Assembly: GCA_905221615.1 (NCBI GenBank)
Contig: CAJNDT010001015.1
Location: 36,082-100,081 of the forward strand
Origin: Symbiodinium sp. CCMP2592
Lineage: Eukaryota > Sar > Dinophyceae > Suessiales > Symbiodiniaceae
DNA length: 64,000 nucleotides
Direction: 5' to 3'
The notes beneath the pieces were generated by a model, which worked only from the letters and a program-made list of their open reading frames with translations, was not told where the DNA came from and did no database searches. The position numbers and the translations under genes were made by a program. Of this stretch, positions 26,431 to 58,136 are shown piece after piece (positions within the stretch are counted from its first letter, which is position 1; each line of letters begins with the position of its first letter).

Positions 26431-26488
26431 TGCTCCTGCTAGCTCTCCGGAGAGACTCCTTCTGCTGATCTTGGCCTTGCAAAACGTC

Positions 26489-31043: not shown

Positions 31044-31133
31044 CCAGGACCTTCGGCTAAAGAAGAGCCCAATACAAGGAGAAACGAGCCTTGGGCCCCA
31101 GTGTCACGGAAAGTGAAAAGAAAGGAAAGTTGA

Positions 31134-37100: not shown

Positions 37101-39095
37101 GCAAGTGACTTCAAGATCCCTACGAAGTATCTGAGAAGACTTGTGATGATGATGATGGTCCAGCAGTGTGATGGACTAAGAGAGCAAAGCAGTAGAAGCA
37201 GTGAAGGTGGAAACCTTGGTTTGGTGATGATGGTGATGATGATGACATTGGTTGTTATCATGGCTTGCAACGGTAGCTTGTGGAAGAGTCTGGTTGGAAG
37301 TGTTGAATGCATGTTTTGTTCCGCCGCTGCCGTTTTTGACTCAAGGAAGAAAGTGAAAAGAGAGGAAGTGAAAAGAAAAGAATTGAGGAGAAAAGAAGTA
37401 GAAGAAAAAGAAGAAGTGAAAAAGATGGCCGACGACGCGGCCCTCAAGACAATGATCAGTGACGAATGCCGCAGCATAGAGTCCGTAACCCTCTGGGAAA
37501 GAGAGCTCAAAAAGGAGCGAGAGAGGAGATTAACCCTGGATGCCCTATGGCCCGAAGTGCAACGCCTCAACCAAAAGTATGAGCCTAAAGAGGCGGCCCC
37601 GTCAGAAGCTGCAAAGACGGAGGTTAAAGTGCCTGAAGAGTTCAAGAAAACAGCCGAGGAATTGGCTGGAGAGGCACAGGGAAGCAAAGGAAGTGCCGAA
37701 GGAAGCCAGGCACAGGTTATGGAAGATAGAGTGAGCGAACTGAGGCAGAAAGCCTTGGATGCTTCCGAGAGGCGAAGGGGCCAGAAGGAAAGGGCAAACG
37801 AAGCCGCAGAGAAGGCGAAGGAAACAAAAGAAGAAGAAGAGAAAAAGAAAGAGAAAGAAGAGGAGGAGCAAGAAGCCTCCGAAAGCGAGGAGAAAGTGAG
37901 TTCGGAGAAAGAAGAGGAAGAGCAGAGCTCCGAAAAAGAGGAAGAGAAAAAGAGAGGTGAAAAGAGAAAGAAAGAGTCTGAGTCCAGTGATGATGAATAC
38001 AAAGAAATCATGGACAAGATGGCAAAGAAGTCAGTTCTGGAAGAGGAGAAGAAAGTGCAGGACCTGCTTGGGCAGATGCGAGTTCTGCAGGAGAAAGTGG
38101 ACGAAAAGAGAAAGAAATTCACGATTTATAGTGACTTGTATACTTACAAGCAAAAGCAGAAGAAGATCAAGGAGGAAGAACGAGACAGGTTGATTGCAAA
38201 AGAGATAGAGGTAAAGGAAGAGCTGAAGCGGGTAGCGGACGAAGCGTTCGTTGCCAAAGAGTCCATAGAGAAACAACTGGACAAGCTGAGAGCCGAAGAG
38301 GAGGAACAGGAAAATGAGGCTACATTGATAATGGACGCAGAGTCCGCCCTGCAAAAAGAGATGGACCAATTGAGGCCGAAACTCCATACTGCACTGGAGG
38401 AGTTGAAGGCAAAAAGGAAGGAACTGCAGGTTCCAGCGGGTGGACTGCTTCAGGGCGAAGCTGAGCAAAAGCTGAAAGAGATGGAGAGCAAGAGGATCAA
38501 AGAGATTAAAGAGCTCCAAGAAACGAAAGAAAAGGAGATCAAAGAGGAGATTGACAAAAAGGATAAAGAGATCAAGGAGCTAAAAGAGGCAAAGGACAAA
38601 GAGATTGGAGAATTGAATGAAGAAGTGAGAAAGCTGAAAAAGCGCAAAAGCAGTGCTGGGTCGACGCAAGGCCCACCGAATGAGGATGCAGAGAAGATGA
38701 AAGAGGAGCGCAAGAAAATGCGCGAGACTATCAAGGAGCTTGGAAAGAATAACAAGGCCCTCGAAGATGAGCTCCAGGTGCTTAAAGAGGAAAGCCGGAT
38801 CAACGAAGATCCTGATGCGCAAAGCCAGGCAATGGTTTGCGCGGTATGTTCGCGTTTCGGACATGGTTCCGAAACGTGTTGGGATGCCGATTACAATTAT
38901 ACTGCCTCAGGGCAGTATGCCCCAAAGATGCAAAGGGAAGAGATGAGTAAGGAACAGTTCCAATCCTGGTACAAGAAAAACGAATTGATAATTCGAAGAG
39001 CATACGCGAACAGGTTGGAGACAAACAAGAAAAAGTACCGCACAGACAATGCGGAGAAGGGCAAAGGAAAGAAAGCCCAGCAAAAGAACAGCTAA
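31134..39095 (+). CDS. copia gag-pol polyprotein with long C-terminal extension (2653 aa)
   Basis: One frame from the ATG at 31134. Gag (~80-280) is followed by KGKGKG repeats (~305-365) and a perfect zinc knuckle CHICGKTGHKAADC (~379-392). Protease: VVLDSGADCHVLP, Asp549. Integrase: HELTHLPRAPWCEACQ zinc motif (~940-956), then D in FSLDFMF (~979), D in RTDTEP (~1046), E in LPVERY (~1086), the D-D-E triad. RT ~1495-1795 with catalytic THVDD (~1639; H replaces the usual Y). RNase H ~1830-1975 with DADWATDREN, SSCESEL, RMDSSSA and KENPADVGTK. After this comes a hydrophobic segment VMMVMMMTLVVIMAC (~2030-2045), then about 500 residues of Lys/Glu-rich coiled coil, a second zinc knuckle CAVCSRFGHGSETC (~2569-2582) and a basic tail. 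All catalytic residues checked are present, so the enzyme set looks functional. Copia proteins normally end soon after RNase H; the extra ~680 residues have no function I can name. Confidence 0.95.
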   Translation: MATPSPAGDADLPVSPGHGGQGGDTPSDTPMAMPAPDGVAGGSLQALIGNLSAAAQALASAAGTGSTRSYDSAAKLVKSPDVFAPKNLEEEVSQWPDWSFSFKVFVGFIDPTYAEELKKVELAPPNPADYTVGERERSTKLYAILASYLRNRPLKLLKSEGSPDGYSVWRRLFEELEPSSRTRGLAMAQALVSFPQMTKGTSILDYLLTYEKLVAEYEKLSEGKPYDENLKIGTVLKGLPNELRKHILIGLTPTTKYADIRKKLLEYERSTQSWNAENILQSFNMESATKSTPYNGPQPMDIDRVKGKGKDKGKGKGHDNKGKGGKGYNNKGKGKGKGYDNKGKGKGKGYDNKGKGKGGYRNARAVDAGGYGKGKFIGECHICGKTGHKAADCWQNQGKGKGGKGKVRQVEEEGTHQGDHEKSSSSNAPPAKNETGQVRQITAEAARQARRVEMTQEWNDEDEELNFVRLCQEFEGLVQGELRRVEEFDISSSDEVEEIEEEPTDGLMEWYQGWWFLETEVERSVRMVSEGDDVRRAAREVDACEVVLDSGADCHVLPMDWAEEVGETSNFEYHLKDAQGKVIPTLPVRQNVTFVFTKESGKKLKITDSAVCGNVTQPLFAVGKMWKLGWGTVNEDGRLWLKKGSVRIPIYFKRNSSMARMCIRRLEGEEMTVQPVRLERELKNELKSKEDEDGWFVLNDGTPARFDWFMGKTFDPTGQFPNRLYEGAGDEGDYFPYRTTLLGKMKRSGERVLNEVDWKSMDFFECTEIWKDRERVQLGASPQARFEVMVTLLEKGLKEPSDYGLLTNLEELERELAQEGVPMEVTGTSSSSRDKKESEKEEPKRGVPVIGEDEEEVMVIGPMKLTRQSELKEMKAACKYLHISKNGSKEILWKRLKKEVALSKVKAQAQISEDIRKEFEREPIPEALPALPSPEEIEAHELTHLPRAPWCEACQAAKSREDNFEETKEKAQRPVFSLDFMFTGTQGDEKERDPLAIQLAGVDNDTKFLIAIAVPTKGGDAVINHAVSEVVRVLALLGYAEVVIRTDTEPVMIAIRRGVQVARTRQGLKTELQDATPDEHQGLPVERYIQTVRNLAKTLLATVEQRSGTAIGSDVPLYSWAYRHAAWLHNRFHVGRDGRTAFEATVDRTYKGKLAPFGSAVFGKAVPKTKEKGEPWEKGVFLGKDYASNLNLIGTGRGVIKARTMRRCAEAYQPELLQLSVGAPWDHQLKALRFKKKRIVPIDDGPGLPRLAVEADKRAEEEKRSEPSPPSDRQGSSSSSSKSSSLSGATPEAMDDESDDDDDDPGEVRTKRKAEDELVPDEMTLEEFQREVAKRNAEEEGEGSPKKELRVDEGTGEVEERVEKVPRLGDEARGSAARVEYHIRRFAKSEDPEEHGDEYVDLDETQLFLEESREFQSKWNEKVCETEEDLTVTWSHEYDDGPPKLEDEDLEKVDLKAERTEIERLLEMKVLKEVELDENGELKKGPNGEEPKRLSTKYVLDWRHRDLQWKRRARLVAREYKWLTDYDLSALYSPTSIGSSIKLLSALCASSRDYEMISIDISDAYLQVPQKEYTVVSLGGKWYQLQYTLPGQRTGSSDWFEHLREILEKEKMVSDVGLPSFFYKFSENPGEGGTLMSTHVDDLEVFGKPKENQAVVDLLLKHKLKIKLEGPVKVGEGKCTFLKRTFLGTKEGIEIRMDGKYLEKLEEILGLGKAMPKKLPFPMDYGRSLKDDTPLDADEHHLYRSCVGILLYMTPERPDLGFATKWLSGKLAAPTRGDLAVLRHVAKYVKATAHYVIEHKEAYPGKSFLDPSDKRTENAYKDVFTAKSLIEVVTDADWATDRENRQSTSCVLIFVNSNIVYFHARKQKATALSSCESELVAAVGGLSEGVFLQNLLHRVLGIRPEMVIRMDSSSARSILMKKGLGRTRHIDAGLLWVQRLTSVGLQVKAIAGKENPADVGTKALSRNAVVKCLERIGVKTGEESEEVRIASDFKIPTKYLRRLVMMMMVQQCDGLREQSSRSSEGGNLGLVMMVMMMTLVVIMACNGSLWKSLVGSVECMFCSAAAVFDSRKKVKREEVKRKELRRKEVEEKEEVKKMADDAALKTMISDECRSIESVTLWERELKKERERRLTLDALWPEVQRLNQKYEPKEAAPSEAAKTEVKVPEEFKKTAEELAGEAQGSKGSAEGSQAQVMEDRVSELRQKALDASERRRGQKERANEAAEKAKETKEEEEKKKEKEEEEQEASESEEKVSSEKEEEEQSSEKEEEKKRGEKRKKESESSDDEYKEIMDKMAKKSVLEEEKKVQDLLGQMRVLQEKVDEKRKKFTIYSDLYTYKQKQKKIKEEERDRLIAKEIEVKEELKRVADEAFVAKESIEKQLDKLRAEEEEQENEATLIMDAESALQKEMDQLRPKLHTALEELKAKRKELQVPAGGLLQGEAEQKLKEMESKRIKEIKELQETKEKEIKEEIDKKDKEIKELKEAKDKEIGELNEEVRKLKKRKSSAGSTQGPPNEDAEKMKEERKKMRETIKELGKNNKALEDELQVLKEESRINEDPDAQSQAMVCAVCSRFGHGSETCWDADYNYTASGQYAPKMQREEMSKEQFQSWYKKNELIIRRAYANRLETNKKKYRTDNAEKGKGKKAQQKNS
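37218..39095 (+). other. C-terminal extension: membrane-like segment, coiled coil, second zinc knuckle
   Basis: Part of the same ORF, listed separately because no standard copia element has it. A Met/Val-rich hydrophobic stretch of about 18 residues is followed by heptad-like Lys/Glu segments (KEEERDRLIAKEIEVKEELK) and ends with a C-x2-C-x4-H-x4-C zinc knuckle and KGKGKKAQQKNS. It might be an envelope-like, a second nucleocapsid-like or an anchoring module; the sequence does not decide. Confidence 0.75.
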
Positions 39096-42846: not shown

Positions 42847-43775
42847 ATGGCTTCACCGCCCGACCCAGCGGAGCTAGCGAAGGGCTCCACGGATTTTCGC
42901 TACCTTTTGACCCAGAATCGGGTCCCGGATACCTCCCAGGCTACCTTGTTCAAAGCCGGGATAGACACGATAGCGAAGTTTTCGGCGAGTTTCAAGGACG
43001 AAGCCGACCTCAAGTCGGTGCTAGCCAAGGACTTCTCGATAGAGCCAGAAAGCTCACTAACAAACAGGGCGCTAGCGGCTGCCTTCGTGGTTGCATGGAG
43101 AGCCGCGCAGGCCAGAACCCGCGAGCAGGCGGATAGAGAAGCGGCTAGCGAGGTCCGGGAATGGGCCAAGCCCATCCCCCAAACGGAATACATGGCTATG
43201 CGCCAGTCCTTCTCGCAGAAGTTTGGCGAGCCCGAGGATAAGCATATTCCGGCTAAGGAATATATTGAGCGAAAGCTGCACGAGCTAGAGACGGGCGAGT
43301 TCAGGGCGGAGCCCCTGAACGAGGTGCTGTCCAGAGACGAGATAGACCCGGATGTGCTAGTTCCCCAGTGGGATAGCAAGGGCACCGCCCTCGTGCTCAA
43401 GAAGGCTACCTCGAAAGGGGCGATGCCATCCGGACCGGAGCAGCTACGGCTACGGCTAACAGTCATGCAAAATGCACTTCTCATGATAGGCCTCCAGCAT
43501 CCAGGGCGAGCAGAACTCAAGGATATCGACTTCCAGCTCTTTGAGAAATACAAAGACTATCTGCTCGGCGACTTCAGAACGCTATCCGGAAACAGGCCTA
43601 CAAGCAGATGGTCCTCAAGGGGATAGCCTTCGCGGACGCGCTAGTCCAGTCCTGGAAGGACGCGGCTACCAAGGAGCGGCACTTCACGACTCCGTTGTCC
43701 CTCTGTGCTAAAAGGCCGCAGCCCTGGAACTGGGATAGCACCAACACCCCGCCGGCTAAGCCCAACAATCCTTAA
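42847..43775 (+). pseudogene. Gag-like protein ending in W-K-D-x-x-x-K-E-R-x-F motif, one frameshift
   Basis: ATG at 42847 (MASPPDPAELAKGSTDFRYL). Helical throughout. Near the end QLFEKYKDYLLGDF is followed, after a frame change near 43580, by AIRKQAYKQMVLKGIAFADA, LVQSWKDAATKERHFTTPL and a TAA at 43773. This K-Y-x-D-Y-L-L ... A-W/S-W-K-D-x-x-x-K-E-R-x-F pattern recurs, as I recall, in proteins of dinoflagellate recombinase retroelements. About 308 residues if joined. Likely structural, RNA- or capsid-related. No RT gene follows; sequence becomes AT-rich and unrelated after 43790. Confidence 0.6.
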
Positions 43776-44173
43776 CCCTTTGCGCCGAACCAGAACCACA
43801 GGGTTTAGATCAACAAGGCTTATATGAAAGGAACCCAAAATCTCATTTTTGTATGTGGTTGGCTTTATTTGTGTTTAAAAGTGTTTTTTTGTATTTAAAA
43901 GTATTGTTTTGTATTTAAAAGTTTTTTAAATAGGTTTTTTTGTGTTTTACAGTTGTTAAAATTCTTTTATTTTATTTTTGGTGTAAAAAATACATGTTTG
44001 TGAATTTTGTTTCTGAGTGAGTCAATTGGCTTCCTGTTGTTCTACCTGGTTTCCTGCTGCTGTATGTCTACAAAATTGTTGTTTATTTGTTGTTGAAGTT
44101 AATAATTTTTAAAATTTAATCTTTTTAAATAGTTTTGGGTTGTGATTGAACAAAGAAGGGAGGCCGTAGTGAC
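43776..44173. other. T-rich spacer
   Basis: TGTATTTAAAAGT-type words repeated three times at 43878-43922, otherwise T-rich low complexity. It separates the GCTA/GATA-biased element from the GGCAGAGTGCC island. Confidence 0.6.
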
Positions 44174-44200
44174 ATGTTGACTTGCCTTGAGATCTTGCCC

Positions 44201-44734
44201 TTACCCACACGGATCGACTGCCCTTCTCGGTTCGTGGGCACCGTTGGCCGGGTGTCAGGTTATGAGGCGATTGTATCTAGACCGCCTTGGGGCCAACGTG
44301 CCAGGGCAGTGGCATATGACACCCGGACAAATGGGCTAAAGTGCCGGGTGGGGCGGTTGAGGGGTTGTTCGCAGCCGTGCTTACAGCCTTGAAGGGGAGG
44401 CCATCCATGCTTGTCGTCACGTTTTGTTAGGGAGCCTTGCGACTTGGATCGACAGAGGCAGAGTGCCACCTTACCCACACGGATCGACTGCCCATCTCGG
44501 TTCGTGGACACCGTTGGCCGGGTGTCAGGTGTTGTCGATGGTACCTGGACCGCCTTGGGGCCAACGTGCCAGGGCAGTGGCATATGACACCCGGGCACAT
44601 GGGCTAAAGTGCTGGGTGGGGTGGTCCAGTGGTTGTGGCTTTTTTATTTTTCTCCCAACCAGGAGGGGAGGCCATCCATGCTTGTCACGTTAGTTAGGGA
44701 GCCTTGCGACTTGGATCGACAGAGGCAGAGTGCC
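44201..44734. repeat. 267-bp direct repeat, 2 copies
   Basis: Copy 1 44201-44467, copy 2 44471-44734, both from TTACCCACACGGATCGACTGCC through GGCATATGACACCCGG and GAGGGGAGGCCATCCATGCTTGTC to GACAGAGGCAGAGTGCC. About 88 percent identical. Each ends with the GGCAGAGTGCC motif. No coding potential in common. Confidence 0.9.
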
Positions 44735-45176
44735 AGTCGAGCCTCTCGAGGTTGCCTTACTTAAGTCCCTGCCCCATCGGGGTTGCTCCCCACACCGTTG
44801 GCCAGGTCTAAGTGTTCGGTTTGAATCCAAGCCTAGTGAACGCCTTCTCTTCCATTTCCTTCTCTCCCATCGGTCTTCATCGGCTTCCAGCCCATCGAGA
44901 AGTGGATGCCAACTGCTGGGATCTCAGCATCAGCTTGCTTCAGCTACTTCCATTATTATGGTACAGTCCTGGCACCGAGGCTCATGACGAGGATCCTGAG
45001 GACATGCTGCCATCGCAGAGGACAAGCTGCCTTGCATAGTCAGTGAGCGTGTCATGTATCGCAACTTGCCGCTGCAGCAGTTGTGCTCGCTGTTGCCCTG
45101 CGTAATCTACTATAGTCGTGTTACAGCTGCTCTGTCTCAAGTCTAAGTCGTAGTAGGCCCCCCTGCAAGCCGGCAG
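44735..45176. other. no supported gene
   Basis: Unique-looking sequence between the 267-bp repeat and the first gene of the island. The last 50 bases (from about 45125) start the 870-bp duplicated unit. Confidence 0.4.
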
Positions 45177-45515
45177 ATGTCGTCGACGTCGTGGAGTGAC
45201 AGTGAGTCTGTGGGCTCGGACTGGGTTCTGGTTGACGATGAGGGTGCAAGCACTGCGGGCTCGGTCGCGGACAGTTTTGACGACGATGATTCTGTGATTC
45301 CGTTCGACACGATGCTAGAGGAGTGCTTTACGACATTCTGGATGTTTCTGAATTCTCAAGAGCGTGGGCAAGTCTTGCAAGTAGCATGGTCTGTCAATGA
45401 GCAGATCATGTTCACACTCTTTCCGAGACTTCGGCGGGATTTTCGGCAAGGCAGAGTGCCAGGAATTTTATATTACAATGTGTCAGACGAATTTCTGGCG
45501 TTACTGCTTCAATGA
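45177..45515 (+). CDS. hypothetical acidic protein, paralogue 1 (112 aa)
   Basis: ATG at 45177, MSSTSWSDSESVGSDWVL. Ser/Asp-rich acidic N-terminus with DDDD, then a conserved helical part (FWMFLNSQERGQVLQVAW) and GRVPGILYYNVSDEF near the end; the G-R-V-P comes from the GGCAGAGTGCC word. No known domain. The duplicate at 46043 keeps the frame and C-terminal motif despite differences in the middle, which suggests it is, or recently was, a real protein. Confidence 0.6.
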   Translation: MSSTSWSDSESVGSDWVLVDDEGASTAGSVADSFDDDDSVIPFDTMLEECFTTFWMFLNSQERGQVLQVAWSVNEQIMFTLFPRLRRDFRQGRVPGILYYNVSDEFLALLLQ

Positions 45516-46042
45516 TTTGTCGTGTTTGTACAGCCTCCGAGACCGTATTACGGATGTTGGGGAAGGCAGAGTGCCGGGTTTGCGTGTGTTTAGAGGATTT
45601 TGAATTCGACGATCTCGCCAGCAGAGCTAGACTGTCCGATTTGAGACCTCAGCGGTAGTGTGCGCAACTTGGATTCAAAACGGTTACCCAGCATGACATG
45701 CTGACTACACAGTGCCGGGTGGCAGTGACGTCCTCAGGACCCTGCTGTCTCCGAGGCTGGCTGCCTGCCTGCCTGCCTGCATAGTCTGTCAGTGAGTTGC
45801 CTTGCACCATACATGATCGACATCTGTCTGCCGGCCAGGGAATCAAGTGATTCATTCATACTGATGTAACAGTAGTAACACAATGTTACATATCATTGAT
45901 TAATGTACTGTATAGTGATGCATTAGTCACTGTTAATGTTTTAATCTTTGGACAATTGAAGTGTGCTCGATGAAAGCAGTGATCCCGACGACCTGCTCTG
46001 TCTCTAGTCTAAGTCGTAGTAGGCCTCCGTGCAAGCCGGCAG

Positions 46043-46396
46043 ATGTCGTCGACGTCGTGGAGTGACAGTGAGTCTCTGGGCTCGGTCTCGGACTTATTGG
46101 CTGTTGGCGAGTTTGCAAGCACTGCGGCGTTTGGGGGTTCGTTTGTGGGCTCGGTCGCGGACAGTTTTGACGACGATGATTATGTGATTTATTTCGACGA
46201 GCTGCTAGAGGAGTCCTTTTCGACATTGTGGATGTTTCTGAATTCTGAAGAGCGTGGGCAAGTCTTGCAAGTAGACTGGCATATCAATGACATGATCCTG
46301 TGCGTACTCGTTCCGAGATTTGTGCGGCAAGGCAGAGTGCCAGGAATTTTACATTACAATGTGTCAGACGAATTTGTGTCGTCACTGAATCAATGA
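46043..46396 (+). CDS. hypothetical acidic protein, paralogue 2 (117 aa)
   Basis: Same start (MSSTSWSDSES) and end (QGRVPGILHYNVSDEF) as the gene at 45177, 866 bases upstream. It has a longer Ser/Gly middle, and the segment before GRVP is shorter. In-frame indels and mostly conservative differences between paralogues indicate coding constraint. Function unknown. Confidence 0.6.
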   Translation: MSSTSWSDSESLGSVSDLLAVGEFASTAAFGGSFVGSVADSFDDDDYVIYFDELLEESFSTLWMFLNSEERGQVLQVDWHINDMILCVLVPRFVRQGRVPGILHYNVSDEFVSSLNQ

Positions 46397-46843
46397 TTTG
46401 TCGTGTTTGTACAGCCTCCGAGACCGTATTACGGATGTTGGGGAAGGCAGAGTGCCGGGTTTGCGTGTGCTTAGAGGATTTTGAATTCGACGATCTCGCC
46501 AGCAGAGCTAGACTGTCCGATTTGAGACCTCAGCGGTAGTGTGCGCAACTTGGATTCCAAAAGGTTACCCAGCATGACATGCTGACTACACAGTGCCGGG
46601 TGGCAGTGACGTCCTCAGGACCCTGCTGTCTCCGAGGCTGGCTGCCTGCCTGCCTGCCTGCATAGTCTGTCAGTGAGTTGCCTTGCACCATACATGATCG
46701 ACATCTGCCGGCCAGGGAATCAAGTGATTCATTCATACTGATGTAACAGTAGTAACACAATGTTACATATCATTGGTTAATGTACTGTATAGTGATGCAT
46801 TAGTCACTGTTAATGTTTTAATCGTTGGACAATTGGGTGCTCG

Positions 46844-48142
46844 ATGAAAGCAGTGATGCCGACGACCGTTTCAAGGTGCTCAGGGAGTTCCGAGGCAGAG
46901 TGCCAGACTTCTGCTGCTGACCATCAGAATCAGGCCAATCACATTGACCTTGGCAGTGATTACTGGAACGAAGCCGTGCAACAACTTCGGTGGAATTGTT
47001 TACACTGTGGCAGATCAGCTGCCGACTATACCACCGGGCTCCGAAAGATCCAAAGGGCTGCACAATTGGATCAACGAATCAAATTGGCAGTTGAGGCCAT
47101 CTCAGATTTCGGAGATATGGATATGAAGTTGTACAAAGCATGGACCGGCCAGACAGATGTGCTGCCTGGGTCGATCCCGCCACCTCGGCCATGCCAGCAT
47201 GATGTCGAGACGTGGCCCATGGATGATGTTTTGATTTACGACCATCCCCAGTGGCAACTGTTTGTTGGCAGTATTGGTTGCCCGATCCGATATGACCAGC
47301 TCCGGGTCAAGCCTGACATTGTCATCTCTATGAATGCAGATGACAGACCTCGGAATTTTGAGCCATGGGACTGGTATCAGTATTTGGCGAATTGTGGACC
47401 GTTTGGCACTGCACATCTTCGGTATGGTGGCTGGGATCAAACACATGCCAATGACTTTGATGCTGAACAAAGAAGTCATGAGTTCAAGACCATTTGGCGC
47501 CGCCTCATTTCAGATTTCAGAAAGATTATGATGTGCTGGCAGCGCTCAGCAGAGGAGTTCAGCCAGAGTCAAAGGCAGAGTGCCATCAAGGGCAAAATGA
47601 TGGGCAAGGCCAATGGCGGCAGGGGCAAGGGCAAGACAATCAGCAAGGGCTACAGCGGCCCCTGTCAGGTTTCCAATCACATGCAAAGCCAGAAGGCATC
47701 GACGAAGGGCTCATTTGGCTATGGCTGCTCCTATGACAAGGGCTTCAGCAAGGGAAGTGACATGGGCAGCCTGTTCGGAAGAGCCGCTGATGGAAGGCAG
47801 AGTGCCGATGGAAGGCAGAGTGCCTTGAAGGTGGCCGATGAGACATTCCCTGGTGAGCTCGGTAATGCTCTTGCTTTGTTGGAGGCGATGAAGCTTCAGG
47901 GAGGTGGTCGGAAGCGTGGAGGCAAGAAGAGGCCAATTCGTGTGCTTGTCCATTGCTACGGTGGCATTAACAGGACCTGTGCTGCTTATTGTGTCCTAGT
48001 CATGGCCTTTGCCTCGATGACCATGGAACAAGCCATTGTCAGGTGGATCAACCACCGAGCCTACTATGCTCCATTCCGGGATCGTGAGTACATGATTGAA
48101 GCACTGCTGGAAATGCAGGATGAGCTGCACACGTACAGTTGA
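46844..48142 (+). CDS. hypothetical protein with PTP/dual-specificity phosphatase-type HCX5R motif (432 aa)
   Basis: ATG at 46844; the start lies in the tail of the duplicated unit and is also present, truncated, after unit 1 at 45970. Residues 30-230 have no family I know (WNCLHCGRSAADY; PWDWYQYLANCGPFGTAHLR). Residues 245-310 are Lys/Gly/Ser-rich (KANGGRGKGKTISKGYSG). Residues 366-385 read RVLVHCYGGINRTCAAYC: His370-Cys371-x5-Arg377-Thr is the catalytic loop of cysteine-based protein phosphatases, followed by a helix as expected. The usual upstream general-acid Asp loop is not obvious. It contains four GGCAGAGTGCC words (46894, 47574, 47796, 47814), three of them read as R-Q-S-A in the linker. 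A cysteine phosphatase or RNA-phosphatase-like fold is an inference from one motif. Confidence 0.65.
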   Translation: MKAVMPTTVSRCSGSSEAECQTSAADHQNQANHIDLGSDYWNEAVQQLRWNCLHCGRSAADYTTGLRKIQRAAQLDQRIKLAVEAISDFGDMDMKLYKAWTGQTDVLPGSIPPPRPCQHDVETWPMDDVLIYDHPQWQLFVGSIGCPIRYDQLRVKPDIVISMNADDRPRNFEPWDWYQYLANCGPFGTAHLRYGGWDQTHANDFDAEQRSHEFKTIWRRLISDFRKIMMCWQRSAEEFSQSQRQSAIKGKMMGKANGGRGKGKTISKGYSGPCQVSNHMQSQKASTKGSFGYGCSYDKGFSKGSDMGSLFGRAADGRQSADGRQSALKVADETFPGELGNALALLEAMKLQGGGRKRGGKKRPIRVLVHCYGGINRTCAAYCVLVMAFASMTMEQAIVRWINHRAYYAPFRDREYMIEALLEMQDELHTYS

Positions 48143-48660
48143 TCATCGACACTGAACCCGAAGTCCATGGTCAAACAGTTCTGCTCCAATGAATGATTCT
48201 GAGCCGTCGAAATTTGTGTCCCGACACTGGCCCAGCCAGAGAGTCCTGGACCCGACACTGGACTGCTGGCTGGAAGTGAAACACAGTCCTTACCTTGAAA
48301 AGGCTAATAGTTACATTCCCACTTTCAGCTGGCAGTCACAGCTTAATTCGTGCGTTTAAACCTGGCTGCCGGTGTTACTGACTGAGCTTAAAAAGAAAGT
48401 GAGATCATGCCCGTCTCGGTTGTGGAAACTGTCAGTTCCTTTGTCGGTTGTGCCGACATGGTGATCAGGGCCGCTGGGGCGATTGGATGAGTGAATCCAG
48501 CCGGCGACTCAGTGGGTGCAAATGTGACTTTAACAGTCAGTCTCCGGTGATTGTAATGAGTGCTCATTTTTGCCTACTTGTGCTGTTGCAGCTGTCTGGG
48601 TTCCGGTGTAAGGCAGAGTGCCCTTGTCCCATTTGTGCAGTGGGCAAGTCATTATCCGCC
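48143..48660. other. spacer
   Basis: No supported gene. One GGCAGAGTGCC at 48612, 49 bases before the next ATG. CCCGACACTGG(C/A)C occurs twice (48221, 48251). Confidence 0.45.
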
Positions 48661-49248
48661 ATGGAAAACACGGGCGCAGTTCGCCAGCGCACTCGGCTGC
48701 AAGAGTTTTCAAGTTGGCAGATGGCCAACTTGAGCAACGCCGGTCAATCCCAAAGAACAAGTCAGGTCGGGAAGGGAGGAAGTAAGGGAGGAGGAAAGCC
48801 AGGGCCAGGGCAGAGTGCCAGTGCGAGCAAGGGCGATCTTGGCAAGGGCAAGGGAAAGGGCAAAATCCCGATGCAAGACCCCAACCAGATCCTTTACACA
48901 TACTTCATGTGCGTGGAGGACGTTTGGCAGGCAGTGGGCAGTGTATGTGATGATAATCATAGCATGTGTTGATTGTGAGTGTTTCTTACTGCTTGACTGG
49001 ATGTCTCCCTGCAGGTTCGATATGAATTCTTCAAAGCGAACGGCATCGCCGCTTGGGCGCAACCCGGTGCCACGCAGGATAACACTCACAAAAGTTATCC
49101 GCACTGGTCCTTGCGCCCCACGGCCCAGACGGCCCTTCAACGCTACCAATGGTGGCCAAAGTGCATTAGATGGCCACTCAGATTCAAGCAATGCTTCGAC
49201 GCTACATTTATTTATTATCTTATACCTACGGATCTTAATACTGACTAG
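48661..49248 (+). CDS. hypothetical basic protein, two exons predicted (join 48661-48942, 49015-49248)
   Basis: ATG at 48661: MENTGAVRQRTRLQEFSSWQ, then a Lys/Gly/Ser stretch (KGKGKGKIPMQDPNQILYTY) and EDVWQAVGS. There a GTATGTG...CTCCCTGCAG segment of 72 bases would splice to VRYEFFKANGIAAWAQPGAT and 77 open codons ending TAG at 49246. Without splicing the frame ends at about 48972. The product is about 171 residues, basic. GGCAGAGTGCC at 48809 is read Q-S-A. Unknown family. Confidence 0.5.
48943..49014 (+). other. predicted 72-bp intron
   Basis: GT at 48943, pyrimidine-rich end and CAG at 49012-49014. Removing it leaves the frame open for 77 more codons. It contains stop codons in the frame of the first exon. 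Confidence 0.5.
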
Positions 49249-49338
49249 AATCAAGTAGCAACTTCAACATGATCTCAGTTCAGGATCGATCAGCATGCAC
49301 CGCCAGCTTACCTGAAGCTGGAACTCACCGGTGCAGGC

Positions 49339-49617
49339 ATGCAAGTGATGACGGAGAGAAGATGGCTCTATTCCTGTAATGAGGGCTGGGCGCGGGGGGT
49401 GGAGAATTTGACGCTGTGGGACGGGGAAGTCACCGACGGTGACCAAATCTTGTGGACCACGACCATGGTGAGATTCGCTTACGACGAAGATGATCCGGAG
49501 GCCTGGAATGAAGAGCGTGTGCAAGATGAGGAGGATTACAACGAGTTCGAACCTATGATTGAGCAAGTTCAAATGACACCTGTAGACAGCGAATTCGTTC
49601 AAGTCGAAAGGCCGTGA
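49339..49617 (+). CDS. hypothetical acidic protein (92 aa)
   Basis: ATG at 49339: MQVMTERRWLYSCNEGWARG, then a strongly acidic tail (EDDPEAWNEERVQDEEDYNE). Stop TGA at 49615; three GGCAGAGTGCC words start 9 bases later. No family recognised; size and acidity resemble the paralogues at 45177 and 46043, but the sequence does not. Confidence 0.5.
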   Translation: MQVMTERRWLYSCNEGWARGVENLTLWDGEVTDGDQILWTTTMVRFAYDEDDPEAWNEERVQDEEDYNEFEPMIEQVQMTPVDSEFVQVERP

Positions 49618-50156
49618 GAAAAAAGGGCAGAGTGCCTTAAAAGGCAGAGTGCCAAAGGCAGAGTGCCCACCATTGGACCATTCAGTGAGTGGGTTGGCCC
49701 AAATTCCAATATCAATTTAATTTTCAGGCCAGGACAGTGACGAAGGCAGAGTGCCAGGAAGGCAGAGTGCCAGGTGGGTCAGGCTTCGTCGACTGACTCT
49801 TCTCAAGTTTTTCAGTGCCGATGTCTGCTCATGTGGACTTCTGCCTGCCTTTCGCACAGCAACAGGTTATTTGTTTGTGGTGCAGGCAAACCAACAAGTC
49901 ATGATCAAAGTTGTGAGTGTTTTGGAGAAGGCCTCGTCGCTGTCAGAGTAGTGCCTCCAGAAGAGCATTGCTTGCTGCAGAAGCAAAACTGTGAGTGCTG
50001 AGACTTCTGAAGACCGAGCACTTCTGAGTTCTGTTGGATGTGTTGGGTTTGCGACTGTGCTGAGAGAGTCTGAGTATGAATGAAAGTGACCATGCAAGGT
50101 TTGGCCGTCAGCTGGCGTCTCCAGACCCCAGGATTGCTGGTCATCGGTGCTGTTCT

Positions 50157-50525
50157 TAGCTTCCGATCATGCTGCTTCTGCGTTGCCAAATTCAACTTAG
50201 CATTCTCGGGCTTCTGAAGTGTCATGTCATGATTGTTTTGCCTATGGCTTATGATGGTTGCTCAGGTTTCAAATGTTGCTGCAGTGGTCCTTGAATCATG
50301 GCATATGGCAGATTTGAATATCAACACAGCCCTTGAATTAGGTTTCATTCGTGTGCTAAGCTCCCGATCATGCTGAGTCTGTCTGGCCCCTCAATTAAGT
50401 TAAACTCCGTGTAGCTGCTGCTTCAATAAAAGTGTCATGTCATGATTATTCTGTCGATGGAGTTGCTCAAAGTGAAGTGAGTCGTGGTCCTTGAATGATG
50501 GCATATGCATGATATTTAATGTCAA
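50157..50525. repeat. diverged direct duplication, about 200-bp period
   Basis: CCGATCATGCTG, TGTCATGTCATGATT and GTGGTCCTTGAAT(C/G)ATGGCATATG occur in the same order at 50163/50363, 50219/50433 and 50284/50485. Confidence 0.75.
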
Positions 50526-50689
50526 TGTGAGCATAATATCAAAATATAGTTGATATAATTTAAATTGTGTCAAATACTAGTAACTATAATCTAACAACAC
50601 ATTGACGTCAGAGGTAGTATATCATTTCGACATTATAAGGCAGAGTGCCGCCTCGCCATTCTTTGCAGAGTGCCTTGAGCTGGACTGAG

Positions 50690-50763
50690 AAGGCTGAGTG
50701 CCTGCATCTGGCTGGACAAGGCAGAGTGCCGCAATCTGGCTGGACAAGGCAGAGTGCCGCAGG
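50690..50763. repeat. 28-bp tandem repeat containing GGCAGAGTGCC
   Basis: Two full units and a partial of AAGGC(A/T)GAGTGCC + GCAATCTGGCTGGAC-like sequence, starting at 50690, 50718 and 50746. The last ends 3 bases before the ATG at 50764. Confidence 0.85.
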
Positions 50764-51338
50764 ATGACAGCGCCTGTGCATACGAGTCCGCTTGGTCAGA
50801 CGTTTTGGGCCAATGTGCGAGCCGGCAACATCACCTGTGAGTTTTACGAACAAGAGCTGGATGGATCCTTGCAGATGGGTGGGAATTATCCCTGGCCGAT
50901 CAAAAAACCTCTAGAATACTATGTCACAGCCTTCGGTGAGGTCCGCCTGCAATTCCGCGTGAGAGGCGGGAAAGGATTCAAACAGTGCAAGTGTGAATGG
51001 AAATACATCGGTCATGGAATGAATCGGGACTCAATGATTGCGAGGATCCACAGCCGTGGGTCATCGACATTCTGAAGCTTCTGCGCGAGGTCAGGATTCC
51101 TCGGTCTGAAAGGCAGAGTGCCGAAGTCCTCAAAGCCTCGACAGTCGCAGCAGAGGCCCTGAGTCTGGTGGATTCTATTCCTGAAGATGCTCTGGACTTC
51201 CATCATCCGACAGATCAGGTGCACCTCTGTGTCAAGCTGCACAGGCCACTCGCAAAGGATGAAAAAGAGTGTGGAAACCAATTTGACTGGCGTTTTCTGC
51301 AATCTCGAATGTTCACAATGCACAGGTGCCCTCGGTCG
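50764..51338 (+). pseudogene. hypothetical protein, frameshifted and cut by inverted repeat B
   Basis: ATG at 50764: MTAPVHTSPLGQTFWANVRA, then YYVTAFGEVRLQFRVRGGKG and CKCEWKYIGHGMNRDS. Near 51035 the protein-like reading moves to another frame: EDPQPWVIDILKLLREVRIP, RSERQSAEVLKAS (R-Q-S-A from a GGCAGAGTGCC word), ALDFHHPTDQVHLCVKLHRP and CGNQFDWRFLQ. At 51339 the sequence becomes the antisense of the 22159 gene, so the 3' end was replaced. About 190 residues, no family recognised. Confidence 0.5.
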
Positions 51339-51799
51339 GACCTCTGTCGACATCGACGAGCTCTTGCCGAGCATGGCTTCAAGCACACGACCCTGCTGTC
51401 CCTGCAGAAGTGCAAAATTCGGCAGTGCCATCGTCTGCCGTAGGAAGCCTTGAGCTGCCTTCAAGTGATTCAAGACTTGCGACATCTTGGATGTCGCACG
51501 TGAAAAACGCTTTGCTTGAGCCAAAACTATGTAATGCAGCAAAAAGTTCATAAATGTTATAAAAATAACTCCAAATAACTTTAAACTGCTTTGAAACAAC
51601 GAAAATACACAACTCCAAATAACTCCAAATAACTTTTTTCGTCGTCAGCCGGTTTCAAGATAACTCAACATAACTTCCTTAAAAAAAGGGTCGAAGTTAT
51701 TTGGACTTGTGGAGTTATGTTGAGTTATGTTGAGTTATGTGGACTTATGTGGAGTTATATGGACTTATAAGTCAACATAACTTCGGGGCTACTTAGGTA
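51339..51799 (-). repeat. 460-bp inverted repeat, copy B (truncated)
   Basis: Reverse complement of 21846-22305. Read on the - strand it holds the same AT-rich start, the spliced-leader relict and the first 49 codons of the 22159 gene, then stops. It keeps the 5' end and lacks the rest, the opposite of normal 5' truncation by reverse transcription. Confidence 0.92.
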
Positions 51800-51841
51800 G
51801 ACAATGACAAACCTGATAAAAATTATGTCTTCAATGCTTAG

Positions 51842-52153
51842 ATGAAAAACCAAATACAGAGAACATCACAGAGAGAACTTAGAGAGAAAACACAAGAGCA
51901 TTGTCAAAATACTCAAGAAAAGGAATTAAGCAAAAGAAAAGAGTATAGAGAACAGAACAGAGACAAGGTCTTAGAACAAAAGAAAACCTACAGAGAAAAC
52001 AACACAGAAACAATATCAAACTACAGCAAAAAATATTACAGTAAAAACAAAGAGCAAATACTAACCAAAGACAAGCAATATCAAATACAAGTGATACAAT
52101 GCCCTGTTTGTAAATGTCAAATAGGAAAGTATCGTGCGCGAACAAACGAATAA
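51842..52153 (+). CDS. Lys/Glu/Gln-rich small protein, large-DNA-virus-like (103 aa)
   Basis: ATG at 51842, MKNQIQRTSQRELREKTQEH. Repeated K-x-Y-R-E-x-N-x-x-x-x-x-E-Q-K-K blocks (YREQNRDKVLEQKKTYRENN) end in CPVCKCQIGKYRARTNE. This pattern of YREKNK repeats closed by a C-x2-C is common in short proteins of large DNA viruses of algae and protists. It looks cut off after the Cys pair, as relatives usually continue with R-H-x-x-S-x-x-H. It lies in an AT-rich block unlike its neighbours, suggesting transfer. Function unknown. Confidence 0.55.
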   Translation: MKNQIQRTSQRELREKTQEHCQNTQEKELSKRKEYREQNRDKVLEQKKTYRENNTETISNYSKKYYSKNKEQILTKDKQYQIQVIQCPVCKCQIGKYRARTNE

Positions 52154-52860
52154 ACATCAACATAATTTGTTACAACCAGCAGAACCAGAAGAATAAGCAA
52201 CCATAATATTATTATCAAATATAATATTATCGTTGAACCCCCCACTACGCCCTAGAAGGTAACAAACTTATCCCAATGGCTAACCCGGCTAACCCGAAGC
52301 TCTACAATCTTGGCTTTAGTTGTTAAAACGCTTGAGTAGCGATGATTTTATATATTGAAAACAAGCTACTTCAAGCAAATATTTTGATAAAAATGTGTAG
52401 GGAGTGAAAAATAAAACGCTTAAGGTGCCTAAGTCATTTTTAAAGAAGATTTTAGGATTTTAACCTTGGCCCTAGGAGTTGACCCCAGTAGTGTGAAAAA
52501 ATAGACAATTGGCCAACCAAAGTTCTAGGATCGCGACTTTAATATGGGCGAATTCTACGAACCGCCCGAATAAAGCCCGATTAAGCTTTGATCCAAGCCG
52601 TGGAAAAACGAAGCTAGGGGACAAGTCAAAAAGTGATGTAAAAGTAAGTGGTAGAAAAATGAAAACGAATGAGGAGCGACAACACACCTATTATTTATTG
52701 CCGGGGCTGGGGCGTGAGCGAAAACTAGAGATATGCCTAAGCGAAAATTTTAAATGAAAAAAAGAATGAGATAACGCTTAGAGGAAAACGAAGCAGAGAC
52801 CCAAATCATGAATTCAGAGGGCTGAGAGGGACAATGAGAAATGAATAAGGAGACGAGGGT
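52154..52860. other. AT-rich stretch, probably foreign or decayed
   Basis: Continues the AT-rich block. A frame at 52509-52757 (ANQSSRIATLIWANSTNRPN) is weakly protein-like. AACGCTTA/CGCTTAAGG/AACGCTTAGAGG words recur (52329, 52416, 52773). No named feature. Confidence 0.35.
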
Positions 52861-52959
52861 GAAGAACAAGTGGGATACAGTGATGAAAAACAACAGATGA
52901 AGCAGGCACGACAACACCTAACCACCCACTCCTCAGGACCCTTATTTCTACAACTTTTC

Positions 52960-53215
52960 CCCTGCGCACCGTCCGCGCACCCGATGTCGCGCTCCCGGCC
53001 CTTGTCCCCGCCCTCCCCCGCGCACCCGATATCGCGCAACCGCCCCTTGTCCATGCACCGTCCTCGCACCCGATATCGCGCTCCCGCCCCTTGTCCACGC
53101 CCTCCCCGACATCGTCCCCCCTCCCCCGCGCACGTCCGCGCGCCCGATATCGCGCTCCCGCCTGTTGTCCACGCACTGCAGCACCGTCCGCACACCCAAT
53201 ATCAAGGCCCGTCCA
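52960..53215. repeat. GC-rich tandem repeat (GCGCACCCGATATCGCGCTCCCGCCCC)
   Basis: GCACCCGAT(A/G)TCGCGC occurs at about 52977, 53024, 53068 and (GCGCCCGATATCGCGC) 53138, each followed by CCCTTGTCC or CTGTTGTCC and (CC)ACGC. Units 45-70 bases. The palindrome GATATC is conserved. Confidence 0.8.
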
Positions 53216-53316
53216 CGGTTTAGTATTCTAAAGCTCTTCCGTTAAGATAGGGCCCGATATCACGCACCTCTCGTTGGAGCACTAAACGAGAACCCAACCC
53301 CAGAGGGGTTTCGAGA

Positions 53317-53465
53317 AAAACAGTGTGTTGAATGTGTTCTCCTTTCCCACCGCACCCCCGCACCCACCCACATGCACGTCACTTCTTCACACCACCGCAG
53401 CCTGGCTTTATCTGGAAATGAAAAGCAGCAAACAGCGGCACACACGACCCGACCCCACCAAGGCC
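53317..53465 (-). repeat. dispersed repeat, inverted partner of 12845-12991
   Basis: Matches the reverse complement of 12845-12991 over about 149 bases. Confidence 0.75.
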
Positions 53466-55590
53466 GAATACCCAAAACACCCAAGCAACCACAGAAGGAT
53501 GTCGATTTCTTCTCTTGCTCTTGATTGCGTCTGCTGTGGAGGAAAAGGATGCTCGTCAGCTGGAGCATCTCGGCACGCGGCTCCCTGACTGCCGGAGCCG
53601 CCCAGAAAGCCTTGCAAAAAGGGTTCGTTCTCCTGCTGAGCTTCTGGGTGACTCTTAGAGGATCCACACGTTTGCATCCAATTCAATCTGCGCACTGAAT
53701 CAGAATGCCACATAATCAACGGACATGGGCCCTTTCTGCAGGGCTATTGTTCGGCACAAGATCAAGATGAGGATCATCCACCGCAGCAGCTCCACATCAC
53801 CATACAGAGACGCTGAACTTGAAGCAGCGGAATCCGGAACAGACGCGCACGAATGGCAATGTAGCAATTTGCCTGTGCACGTGCCGGGGCATTCTGCCAT
53901 CAACGACGGAGGCTCAATTTCGTTCCGCGCGAGCGTATCTCTTCGCGCCATGGCTCCTCCACTTTTGACGGCGATGTCTTGGCTCCGTCCACCCGGGCCT
54001 GCCCTAGCCCTGGCTCGGCTTCGAGCGCAGATGCGCGGTAGCACCGAGGCCGGGGCCCGAACTGGGGAAGAAGACGTGGACCTCCCTTCATACAGAGGCG
54101 ATGGCCAGAATGCTTTGGCCCATGCACTGGCGGGACAAAAGTCTTCCCCAGTCGCCGAGGCAGAAGACACACATCGCAATTTAGGGTTTGCAATGCACTC
54201 AGGGGCGAAGGCGTCAAGGATGCGGAAAGTGGGCTTTTGTATCCCAGCACAGATTCCATGCAGTCTGTTGAGATTCAACATTCTGATTTCGACGTATACG
54301 CACAGAGCGCGTAGACTTTCAGCGGCTTCGGCTGGCCCGGAGTTCACCATATAAGTACAGTTTCGATACTTGGCTGGCCGCTTGGAGTGCTTGGTCTGTA
54401 GACTCTTACTGTCATGAAGGACAAGTATTTAGTTGTCGCAGAGTTTGGAACAAATCGTGCCCAACAACTGTAATGAACCTTGTTTGTTAGTCCTCGGCTA
54501 CTGCAATGCTCGACTTCGCAATGAAACTGCATGCATTGGTGCGTTTAATAAGTTCGACGCCGAAGAGCATCCGCAATCCAGCCGATCGTCAGCCCAATCG
54601 CGTGAGTTGCCTCGAGCCGTTCGGCTGCTGACTTGTGCAGTTCGGCATGAGCATGCATGAACCGCTGACTTCGTTGTCTTCGTCGTCCTCTTCGCCCGGC
54701 AGCTCGCACTGCATAGATGGCATGGATGTAAAAACGTCTTAAGGGTGCACAAGGCGACGAAGCCACACGGGGCATCGCAGGCCCGAGATCCGAGAATTTT
54801 CGACGGCAAGATGCACACGCGGGGAGTTTCGATTGACGTCTTACCCGCGCGAGGGGGGGGGGGGGGGCGTGGTGATCAGGTCTTGGCTGTTCAGCTGCGA
54901 TGCCTGGCGATGAGATACATCGCCACTGGCGACATCTTCAAGTGCCTCCACAGTTTTGCACGGACATTCGCTCACACTTTCGACGACACGACCTTACAGG
55001 CCCACGTTGGCTCCGAAGTGTCAAGGATGCTCCGAGCCGCTGTCGACCTCGACCCGTGTGCCACCCACAGCCGCTGTGCGCATGACACGAACTCCCACAC
55101 TGCGCTCCTGCACTGTATGCCGTCGCCTCCCCAGCATATCCCGGCACATCAGTGTCAGGGATGTCTTGGCCTGATCATGCAGTTGGCCGCTGTAAGTTTC
55201 TTTTTGCGCATATGCCCAGAGCCTCGCCGACGAGAGTTTGCGGCCTCTCTTTCGGACCGAAGGTTTTTTTTTCCGTTATGAAACATTCCCTGCAATGCCA
55301 CCCGCAAACGCACCGCTCCCTTCCAGCTTTCTGTCGACTCTGGCATTAGGCAGACGGCCCCTTGTGGCACCTCGAGACTCGCTCAGGGGCCAGGCTACCC
55401 TGCGATCTCTGGGAGGCTTCGGCCTTCGGCTTTCTGGGTGCACCAACCCCCGGGATGTAGGCTCGCCGGTGTTGGCATGTGGCGCCCGAGCGCACGAAAG
55501 CAACAAGATTTTCTCTCGGACAACCAACCCTGCATGTCGGCCAGCCTGCCGGAGCAAATAGGGGGAGGCCGACAGCTAAGAGCTGGCTAA
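53466..55590. other. no supported gene
   Basis: Open frames of 100-210 codons occur on both strands at 53700-54350, but neither has motifs or plausible composition, and they overlap. A run of about 15 G lies at 54856-54870. Nothing else seen. Confidence 0.4.
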
Positions 55591-56170
55591 GAGTGTCTGC
55601 CGGAGATGCAAGATTGCGGACACGGCTGTGTTGTATGTGGAGTGAAATGGTGAATGACCATTATATAGTAAGAATAATCAAGATAGTGACATAGTAGATC
55701 CGACATGCACGGGTGGCTGCCCAAGATGCAAAAACTACGTTCTGCTTGTAGCAGTAAACTTAGTATTACCTGTGGTATAGTGCCTGGCATAGTACATGGT
55801 CTATTACTTGGTATAGTATGCGGTTTAGTACTTTGTATAGTACACGGTGGTACGTGATAGTGCGTGGTAGTATCTGGCAGTACGTGGTAGTATGTTGTAG
55901 TACGTGGTAGTACACGGGAGAAGTTGAAACATACTTGGAGGCCTAAGAGTGGCTGCCCGAGATGCAAGAGTATTTCTGAATCTCGGGCTGCATTGTAAGT
56001 GGAGTGAAATGGTAAATTATTGTTGTACTAAGAATTAAGAATAATCAAGATAGCAAATAACAGGTCCTGCATGCAGGGGTGGCTGCCCAAAATGCAAAAA
56101 CTGCGTCCTGCTTGTAGTAGTAACTTAGTTGTACCTGTGGTATTGCACCTGGTACAGTACGTGGTTTTGA
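55590..56170. repeat. diverged direct duplication with TAGTACGTGG minisatellite
   Basis: 55595-55790 and 55943-56165 share GAGATGCAAGA, GTGGAGTGAAATGGT, AGAATAATCAAGATAG, GGTGGCTGCCCAA(G/A)ATGCAAAAACT and TTACCTGTGGTAT. Between them, 55785-55920 is a run of GTAGTACGTG/TAGTA(C/T)-type words about 10-16 bases long. Confidence 0.8.
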
Positions 56171-56593
56171 GGCTGCCAACCTGCAAGTGCCCGCTGTTCA
56201 GCATAGGCGGCATGTTGATGTCCTGCCTCAGCCCGGCCCCTACGGCAGTTGGAGGCCTGCAGCACAACCAATTGCCGCCCGATGTTGCCATCATCAATGC
56301 TGTGGGGGCCTGGTGGCCTTCCATATCGCAATGCCACCCACGCGACTCTTGTTAGAGACGCAACGATGCTGACGCGTCTGGCGGGGTCCGGTATCGCGGC
56401 AAGTGGTTGCGAAAATCGAGCTTGTTTCGTGTGGTGGCCAGCTGGCCCGTCGAATGCATAATTTTGCGACCCCGTTGCCACATCCAGCTCTTGGCGAATT
56501 CGAGTTGCAGGGTGTGCTGTGGTGTGCTGTCGCTGCAAGTTGATGTGTAGTTGCTGGGGTCCTCGTTTTCGGTACATGGCGGCAGGAGTAGTT

Positions 56594-56630
56594 GGCAGCA
56601 GCAGCAGCAGCAGCAGCAGCAGTCGTAGCC
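56594..56630. repeat. (CAG/AGC)n trinucleotide repeat
   Basis: About nine consecutive AGC units, with more scattered AGC to 56680. Gives poly-Ser/Ala/Cys readings in different frames. Confidence 0.9.
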
Positions 56631-57683: not shown

Positions 57684-58136
57684 ATGTCCTCGACCTGGCC
57701 GTGGGGAGCTATCCTCGGATACCTTGTTTGGTGTGACCTCCGTCGTCCTTCTGTCTCAGAGCTTGCCGCTTCAGAGGTTGCATCTCTTCGCCGGGAAGTC
57801 GAGGCGCTAAGGCGGCTGCTTGAAGACTTGGAGCAGTCGGCCGCGGAGAGGGATTCTTCAAGGTGGTGGTTGTTAGTCTGCTATCGGGCTTTGGTGATCA
57901 CTTGGGTCTTGGGTGCAGTGATTCTCTACTTGAGCTGGAAGAAGAAACGAACTCCTGTATCGCTGCCCGCCATAACCCTGGAACCTTCGATAACTTCACC
58001 GTCGGAGTTGGATACCCCATCTTCGCGGACATCGACCTCGGTGTCCCCTCTTCCCAAGGCGAGGCCGGTGCGGCCATCTGACCTAAGGCTTCGGGCCAAA
58101 TCGAACGATGGGGAATCTGACCTTGGACATTCCTGA
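57684..58136 (+). CDS. small coiled-coil and single-pass membrane protein of the DIRS-like element (150 aa)
   Basis: ATG at 57684, MSSTWPWGAILGYLVW. Residues ~27-52 form a heptad coiled coil (VASLRREVEALRRLLEDLEQ), residues ~59-84 a strongly hydrophobic segment (WWLLVCYRALVITWVLGAVI) followed by KKKR, so the C-terminus is probably cytoplasmic. The tail is Ser/Thr/Pro-rich. It overlaps the next gene by 29 bases in another frame. DIRS elements are not generally known to encode a membrane protein; the tight overlap with the Gag-like gene argues it belongs to the element. Confidence 0.6.
   Translation: MSSTWPWGAILGYLVWCDLRRPSVSELAASEVASLRREVEALRRLLEDLEQSAAERDSSRWWLLVCYRALVITWVLGAVILYLSWKKKRTPVSLPAITLEPSITSPSELDTPSSRTSTSVSPLPKARPVRPSDLRLRAKSNDGESDLGHS

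Follow-up and report, generated by a model that had tools for sequence, protein, structure and literature searches.

What would cause a single 11-base word to recur, always in the same orientation, across a short part of a dinoflagellate contig and nowhere else nearby? The question is raised by a stretch of 64,000 nucleotides from Symbiodinium sp. CCMP2592 (contig CAJNDT010001015.1; C1015:36082-100081), which we call the window and in which the word GGCAGAGTGCC occurs 21 times between positions 44457 and 51122. Coordinates are window positions unless marked C1, C1rc (the reverse complement of contig C1) or C1015. Our results support a model in which this word, whose extended consensus over the whole element is AAGGCAGAGTGCCA(G), is probably a directional nucleic-acid recognition tag that is tiled along a giant element with terminal inverted repeats (TIRs) and on which selection acts at the level of the nucleic acid and not of the encoded peptide.

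The 21 exact copies are all on the + strand, and a scan of both strands found no exact copy elsewhere in the window, in agreement with the first-pass annotation of this DNA. The chance expectation given there, about 0.002 copies, was too low: 100 shuffles gave a mean of 0.05 per window, with a maximum of 1. Allowing one mismatch added four places, two of them the near-copies already noticed within the interval (50664 and 50692; at least two had been claimed) and two outside it (53888 on the - strand and 62802 on the + strand), and the + strand of the interval holds in total 21 exact, two one-mismatch and one two-mismatch copies. Of the 21 copies, 18 have an A at position -2 and 19 have one at position -1. 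Copies sit inside genes and in spacers, and those inside genes read RQSA, GRVP or AEC in the open reading frames (ORFs) of the window, as had been reported. The 267-bp, 870-bp, 28-bp and 18-bp duplications that had been discounted in that count are all present, and as far as tested the contexts of the copies do not all derive from one segment.

Confinement to this interval holds within the window but not genome-wide. In the whole assembly (1,098,105,373 bases in 5383 contigs), GGCAGAGTGCC occurs 20,442 times (9890 + 10552 per strand), against 244 times (118 + 126) for the reversed control, and composition, as far as tested, does not explain this 84-fold excess. Three further copies lie in the first 20 kb of the window's own contig (C1015:8804, 9524 and 10244), and the first 100 of the 20,442 places listed are all on C1 (1,147,141-1,184,237). 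In the DNA that was read, the places with copies are the C1 element described below, the window and C1015:7.5-10.3 kb, all of one element family; another 13 stretches (122.7 kb) held no copy, which is weak evidence, since the genome mean predicts about two. We infer the giant-element family to hold most of the 20,442 copies, in which case some 76 copies per element would correspond to roughly 270 full-length equivalents genome-wide.

The interval had been described as a gene island. Rather than an island of host genes, it is part of a fragment (43769..51326, + strand) that is 94.9% identical to C1rc 14829-22330 and represents the truncated 5' portion of a giant TIR element. In the window and C1 copies alike, similarity starts with TCCTTAACCCTTTGCGCCG and the flanks are unrelated; the same start sequence is found inverted at the far end of the C1 locus, which identifies the latter as a giant element with TIRs. 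The inverted match between the ends of the C1 locus covers 70 bp at 86% identity (E 3.6e-17), about 17 bp of it AT repeat, and AT repeats border the C1 element on both sides. The left TIR of the window fragment spans 43769..43821 (+), its inner end being approximate; similarity to C1 starts here and the outer flanks differ. It is followed by two 267-bp subterminal tandem repeats (44199..44735, +), each with an exact motif copy at its end (44457..44467 and 44724..44734, both +). Next to the right end of the C1 element (L065; C1rc 57107-57850), CCCTAA-rich, telomere-like tandem units of ~93 bp carry the word nine times in antisense. The whole element was read only on C1, the window and C1015:7.5-10.3 kb being pieces. 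Directly after a gap of 100 N in C1 (C1rc 33608-33707) begins a 14.7-kb repeat of 99% identity, which is probably an unmerged scaffold overlap; if it is read so, the element is about 28.7 kb long, and otherwise 43.5 kb. The window fragment stops at 51326 inside a frame-broken gene that corresponds to a 1271-amino-acid ORF in C1, and we therefore regard it as a relic.

Comparison of the window with C1 suggests that the word is maintained. On each side, 20 of 21 copies are paired and identical, and the unpaired one reflects copy number in a tandem array. In 19 pairs, a test that omits the array copy at 48809, none of 209 bases has changed, compared with 88 of 1622 in the flanks within 60 bp (Fisher p=1.8e-5); flanks within 30 bp (37 of 834 changed; p=2e-4) or 150 bp (155 of 3491; p=1e-4) give the same contrast. 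Because the copies were chosen as exact in the window, we also halved the flank rate to allow for ascertainment, and the probability of seeing no change then lay between 0.003 and 0.02. The two bases on either side of the word are likewise unchanged in 19/19 pairs, as are the near-copies at 50664 and 50692 and the copies outside genes. What does differ between the paralogues is the number of whole units in tandem arrays.

Orientation, spacing and frame use were computed on the non-redundant body of the C1 element, and together with the distribution, the unchanged copies and the ends they describe one element and one paralogous fragment. The body contains 66 exact copies in the sense direction and one in antisense, along with nine one-mismatch and eight two-mismatch sense copies, whereas scrambled control words average 0.01, 0.23 and 3.6 copies at zero, one and two mismatches. 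With 66 occurrences the word is the commonest complex 11-mer of the C1 sense strand; the next, besides its own shifted forms, is a 20-copy repeat. Of the 66 copies, 32 (25 read as GRVP, five as RQSA and two as KAEC) fall in ORFs of at least 250 amino acids that begin with ATG (ATG-ORFs), which account for 43.7% of the element, so genes are neither clearly preferred nor clearly avoided, and copies occur in all three reading frames of the element's genes. When copies less than 100 bases apart are merged, the resulting 41 sites have a mean gap of 666 bp (largest 1610) and a coefficient of variation of 0.48, compared with 0.82 for random placement (P=0.0004); other merging cut-offs gave P=0.0026 (60 bases) and 0/5000 (150 bases). 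The copies less than 100 bases apart are separated by a multiple of three in 13/13 cases within ATG-ORFs of at least 150 amino acids but in only 3/12 outside them (p=1e-4), and in 12/12 versus 4/13 cases if ORFs of at least 200 amino acids are taken (p=3.5e-4), which supports translation of the ORFs and the gain of copies under frame selection. Arrays around the motif have unit spacings of 13-18, 21, 23 and 28.

The use of three frames, the equal treatment of spacers and coding DNA and the unchanged copies argue for selection on nucleic acid, and the single direction of the body copies argues for a directional reader. Under our model, tag copies would be set in genes and spacers, in three frames and in the direction of the genes, in steps of about 0.7 kb, and their reader would be a factor that recognizes the sequence specifically, in the simplest case a product of the element itself. 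This reader might act on transcripts or on element DNA, presumably to the element's benefit. Copies would be gained and lost through local tandem duplication of short units, and point mutation also seems capable of generating them. Two options had been raised initially, a conserved RNA or protein binding site and a self-spreading mini-insertion; the former fits best, given the unchanged paired copies, the use of all frames, the spacers and the even spacing.

Homologous proteins provide a view of the sites in other species. The 432-amino-acid protein encoded at 46844..48142 (+), which has a weak phosphatase-like C-terminal match under the Pfam cut-off, has 10 homologues, one of them named Symbiodinium necroappetens. 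RQSA at residues 244-247 is invariant in 11/11 aligned proteins, with tandem copies at this first site in P0003 and P0004; a second RQSA site is present in 8/11 proteins and tandem in three of these eight. Near the N-terminus, and in another reading frame, P0001-P0005 have KAEC or EAEC; P0007, P0008 and P0010 have KKAEC at a different place, with no net insertion. P0007 and P0008 read a similar array in two frames, as ARQSAAAARQSA and QGRVPLLQGRVP; only 12 DNA strings fit both peptides, each with exactly three copies of the word, on the assumption that these close homologues share that DNA. For a 962-amino-acid ORF of C1, the close relatives P0012-P0015 (79-86%) retain most GRVP/KAEC sites, one of their KAEC sites being a two-mismatch copy in C1. 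The more distant P0016 (46%), P0017 (47%) and P0018 (38%) have no GRVP. Where the C1 protein has GRVP, column 188 reads GVVP in P0016 and GVLP in P0017, column 484 reads GVLP in P0017 and GIVP in P0018, and column 797 reads GVLP in P0017; P0017 has five copies of QGVLP and P0016 three of RGVVP, and no such peptide is repeated in P0018. Judged from these protein sequences, the differing peptides at some of the same sites may be lineage-specific versions of the tag. The broader proposal that the giant element carries a directional identity tag along its whole length, that each dinoflagellate lineage has switched tags in concert and that a co-evolving reader protein tells own nucleic acid from other is tentative, and we consider it rather doubtful as a whole.

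The alternative closest to our model places recognition at the DNA level: a transposase or a packaging, partition or chromatin factor would bind the word in the element's double-stranded DNA. This overlaps the preferred explanation and competes with its RNA-level form, and we give it a substantial but clearly smaller chance than the general model of a nucleic-acid tag. Subterminal repeats of DNA transposons are bound as double-stranded DNA, and a reader of this kind would suit the near-palindromic core and the even spacing without gene preference. The subterminal copies also point inwards at both ends (sense on the left, the antisense 93-bp array on the right), which, together with the even tiling, leaves room for a reader of DNA. 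However, a dyad-symmetric site does not need the 66:1 orientation of the body, the flanks (AA...AG) are not symmetric, and the subterminal repeats known to us stay near the ends of their elements. Recognition at the transcript level is slightly favoured by the strand bias. One form that such recognition could take is an RNA hairpin, GGCA-GAG-TGCC, as suggested by the 4-bp stem with a GAG loop that had been proposed initially. Although the isolated 14-mer folds at -4.4 kcal/mol, stem probability in native contexts is no higher than with shuffled flanks (0.32 vs 0.34, p=0.72, n=66; 0.36 vs 0.32, p=0.52, in the 30 contexts without other copies), and an Rfam scan of the window returned no match. 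One of the eight two-mismatch copies, TGCAGAGTGCA at C1rc 31290, carries a compensatory change that keeps the stem, too few to judge; the other seven are not compensatory, and scrambled words average 3.6 two-mismatch copies in any case. Of the nine one-mismatch copies, seven are changed in the stem, which takes up 8 of the 11 positions, and two in the loop, roughly in proportion. The stem proposed initially is thus unsupported, and we consider a hairpin improbable.

Two further explanations were weighed. The word might be a selfish micro-repeat, a 13-15-base unit that spreads by slippage, tandem duplication and conversion and has no function. The short-unit arrays around the motif, with the spacings given above, the whole-unit differences between paralogues and the tandem copies in P0003, P0004, P0007 and P0009 are all in keeping with this, and the part of the mini-insertion proposal that stands is that short units are gained and lost locally in tandem. 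On the other hand, decayed copies are few (66 exact vs nine one-mismatch), paired copies are unchanged where their flanks differ, and the sites are more evenly spaced than random and of single orientation in the body. A pure mini-insertion also does not explain two KAEC sites in regions that can be aligned, which differ between homologues with no net insertion. We therefore regard a functionless repeat as unlikely, if less so than a hairpin. Least likely of all, and in our view barely credible, is a linear motif acting at the protein level (EGRVP, RQSA or KAEC). The invariance of RQSA in the 11 aligned proteins would be expected of such a motif, but one DNA word gives three different peptides, 34 of the 66 copies lie outside long ORFs, and copies outside genes are likewise unchanged between the paralogues, between which no synonymous change within the word was found.

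Several observations weigh against a selected, directional tag. The nine copies in the 93-bp array close to the right end run opposite to the genes. If all motif columns of both copies are considered, 7 of 231 bases have changed, which is not significant (p=0.39), all seven belonging to one extra C1 array copy aligned against window sequence that has no copy; and copy-to-copy conversion could explain the unchanged copies. ORFs of at least 120 amino acids are about as numerous in sense (42, the longest 1293 amino acids) as in antisense (48, the longest 437), so open frames alone give no gene direction, for which we relied on the frame test and on those ORFs that have homologues. A single element with an assembly gap supplied the data on spacing, orientation and frame use. 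No reader protein was found among the Pfam-scanned frames of the element. Finally, the lineage versions are known from peptides only, in short gappy linkers; in P0016-P0018 such peptides also stand elsewhere (columns 166-180, 202, 459 and 775), and the GRVP and KAEC peptides searched are absent from P0019 and P0020.

Along the window fragment, the copies fall in and around a few genes, all on the + strand. A fast-evolving small gene is present as two ORF copies (45177..45515 and 46043..46396), each with one motif copy in a frame that reads GRVP (45450..45460 and 46331..46341) and one 3' of the stop (45565..45575 and 46446..46456). The two gene copies show 32 amino-acid-changing codon differences and one synonymous difference in 108 codons (nonsynonymous divergence, dN, 0.20; synonymous divergence, dS, 0.08), the non-coding DNA that flanks them is 94-98% identical, and their product, a small acidic protein, looks to be under strong diversifying selection. 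In the phosphatase-like gene, the copy at 46894..46904 reads AEC (KAEC or EAEC near the N-terminus in 4/10 homologues), that at 47574..47584 encodes the invariant RQSA, and those at 47796..47806 and 47814..47824 read RQSA in 18-bp tandem units. A sequence search of the PDB with this protein gave weak phosphatase matches only (E 0.17 and worse), and its predicted structure is poor overall, with a mean predicted local distance difference test score (pLDDT) of 50 and the RQSA sites in a stretch under 50; a member of the 962-amino-acid family had a mean pLDDT of 47 and no PDB match at E<=0.001, and neither prediction led to a usable fold match. The next copy, 48612..48622, lies 38 bp 5' of a possible start ATG (48661), where the frame is open upstream too and reads KAEC, and the one at 48809..48819 reads GQSA, its C1 counterpart being a 15-bp array with two exact copies and one mismatched copy. 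Directly 3' of an ORF stop codon stands 49626..49636, followed in an array by 49643..49653 (spacing 17) and 49657..49667 (spacing 14). One 16-bp unit at the site of 49745..49755 is missing from C1, and 49761..49771 lies in a 16-bp unit. Upstream of the truncated gene come 50639..50649, the one-mismatch copies TGCAGAGTGCC (50664..50674) and GGCTGAGTGCC (50692..50702), both identical in C1, and two copies in 28-bp tandem units (50720..50730 and 50748..50758). The start of that gene (50764..51326; the 1271-amino-acid ORF of C1) is frame-broken and cut off in the window and includes the last copy (51112..51122, RQSA). None of 66 candidates proved homologous to the fragment of gene D at E<=0.01, and six proteins had no match in PHROGs.

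Other features were seen in and near the element. In C1, a 385-amino-acid ORF (C1rc 45978-47132; L066:7869-9023:-) contains FLEIFAGQGN and GTPCSSF stretches, which resemble those of a cytosine-5 DNA methyltransferase; Pfam gave no match for it, and the PDB none that was useful. About 4.7 kb left of the truncated element fragment, 31134-39095 encodes a 2653-amino-acid ORF with an RVT_2 reverse transcriptase domain, which we take to be Copia-like. A 10-20-bp tandem unit, ATAACTCCAC, occurs at 21877-21950 and 51695-51768 in opposite orientations, the second array being surrounded by inverted repeats immediately to the right of the truncated element, and one 89-bp tandem unit forms three separate arrays at 18693-20367.

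Maverick/Polinton transposons have terminal inverted repeats. Mavericks, with a size class of 15-40 kb, have been reported in the dinoflagellate Breviolum minutum (PMC11071213), and the portions of that paper available to us mention no such tag for them. The C1 element has TIRs and, at about 28.7 kb, would fall in the same size class, but the domains that define Maverick/Polinton (protein-primed DNA polymerase B, retroviral-type integrase, packaging ATPase and capsid) were not seen in its scanned sense frames: there was no Pfam match to any of the four at E<=0.1 in C1rc 20001-33607 and 48381-58341, nor at E 0.05 in single ORFs of the element. The Pfam scan of C1 covered three sense frames, the first 5.2 kb and the antisense frames not being scanned whole; within the parts scanned, no transposase domain of a cut-and-paste superfamily was matched, and no match of any kind rose above the cut-off, a phosphatase and a few others falling below it. 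Among prokaryote contigs, 54 stretches had two close copies of the word, in contexts that by eye are unrelated tandem or CRISPR-like repeats, and AAGGCAGAGTGCC was present in two of them (L031 and L049). In viral contigs the searches found 0 and 2 stretches, and the phosphatase-like family had no relative there; phage records gave no match. Full-text literature matches for GGCAGAGTGCC and its complement included none on algae, judging by title, and the tag was not found in the accessible parts of the literature on palindromic or hairpin elements of dinoflagellates, on TIR transposons of Symbiodiniaceae and on giant elements.

Short words repeated at very high copy number have precedents. The uptake signal sequences (USS) of Pasteurellaceae are one, and CACTA and hAT subterminal repeats, Chi sites and KOPS sites are likewise short repeated or oriented binding words, although we know of no eukaryotic element whose coding regions are tiled with any of these latter types. 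Rickettsia palindromic elements are repeated palindromic sequences that are also read inside proteins, but as insertions of about 100-150 bp, compared with a word of 11-15 bases here. The DNA uptake sequences (DUS) of Neisseriaceae are short words in thousands of copies with lineage dialects, as described in the excerpts of PMC3630211 available to us. Like DUS and USS, the tag is a short word whose thousands of copies far exceed chance (20,442 vs 244). By analogy it may be compared with them, but DUS and USS mark bacterial chromosomes for natural transformation, whereas the tag was read on one giant eukaryotic element family, is strongly oriented in the element body and is linked to no known uptake process. 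To our knowledge, no eukaryotic mobile element has been described as tiled through genes and spacers with one oriented, evenly spaced word maintained at the level of nucleic acid. If our model is correct, the word would provide a handle on how giant dinoflagellate elements recognize their own DNA or RNA, a sequence marker for finding such elements and a testable case of tag-reader co-evolution outside bacteria.

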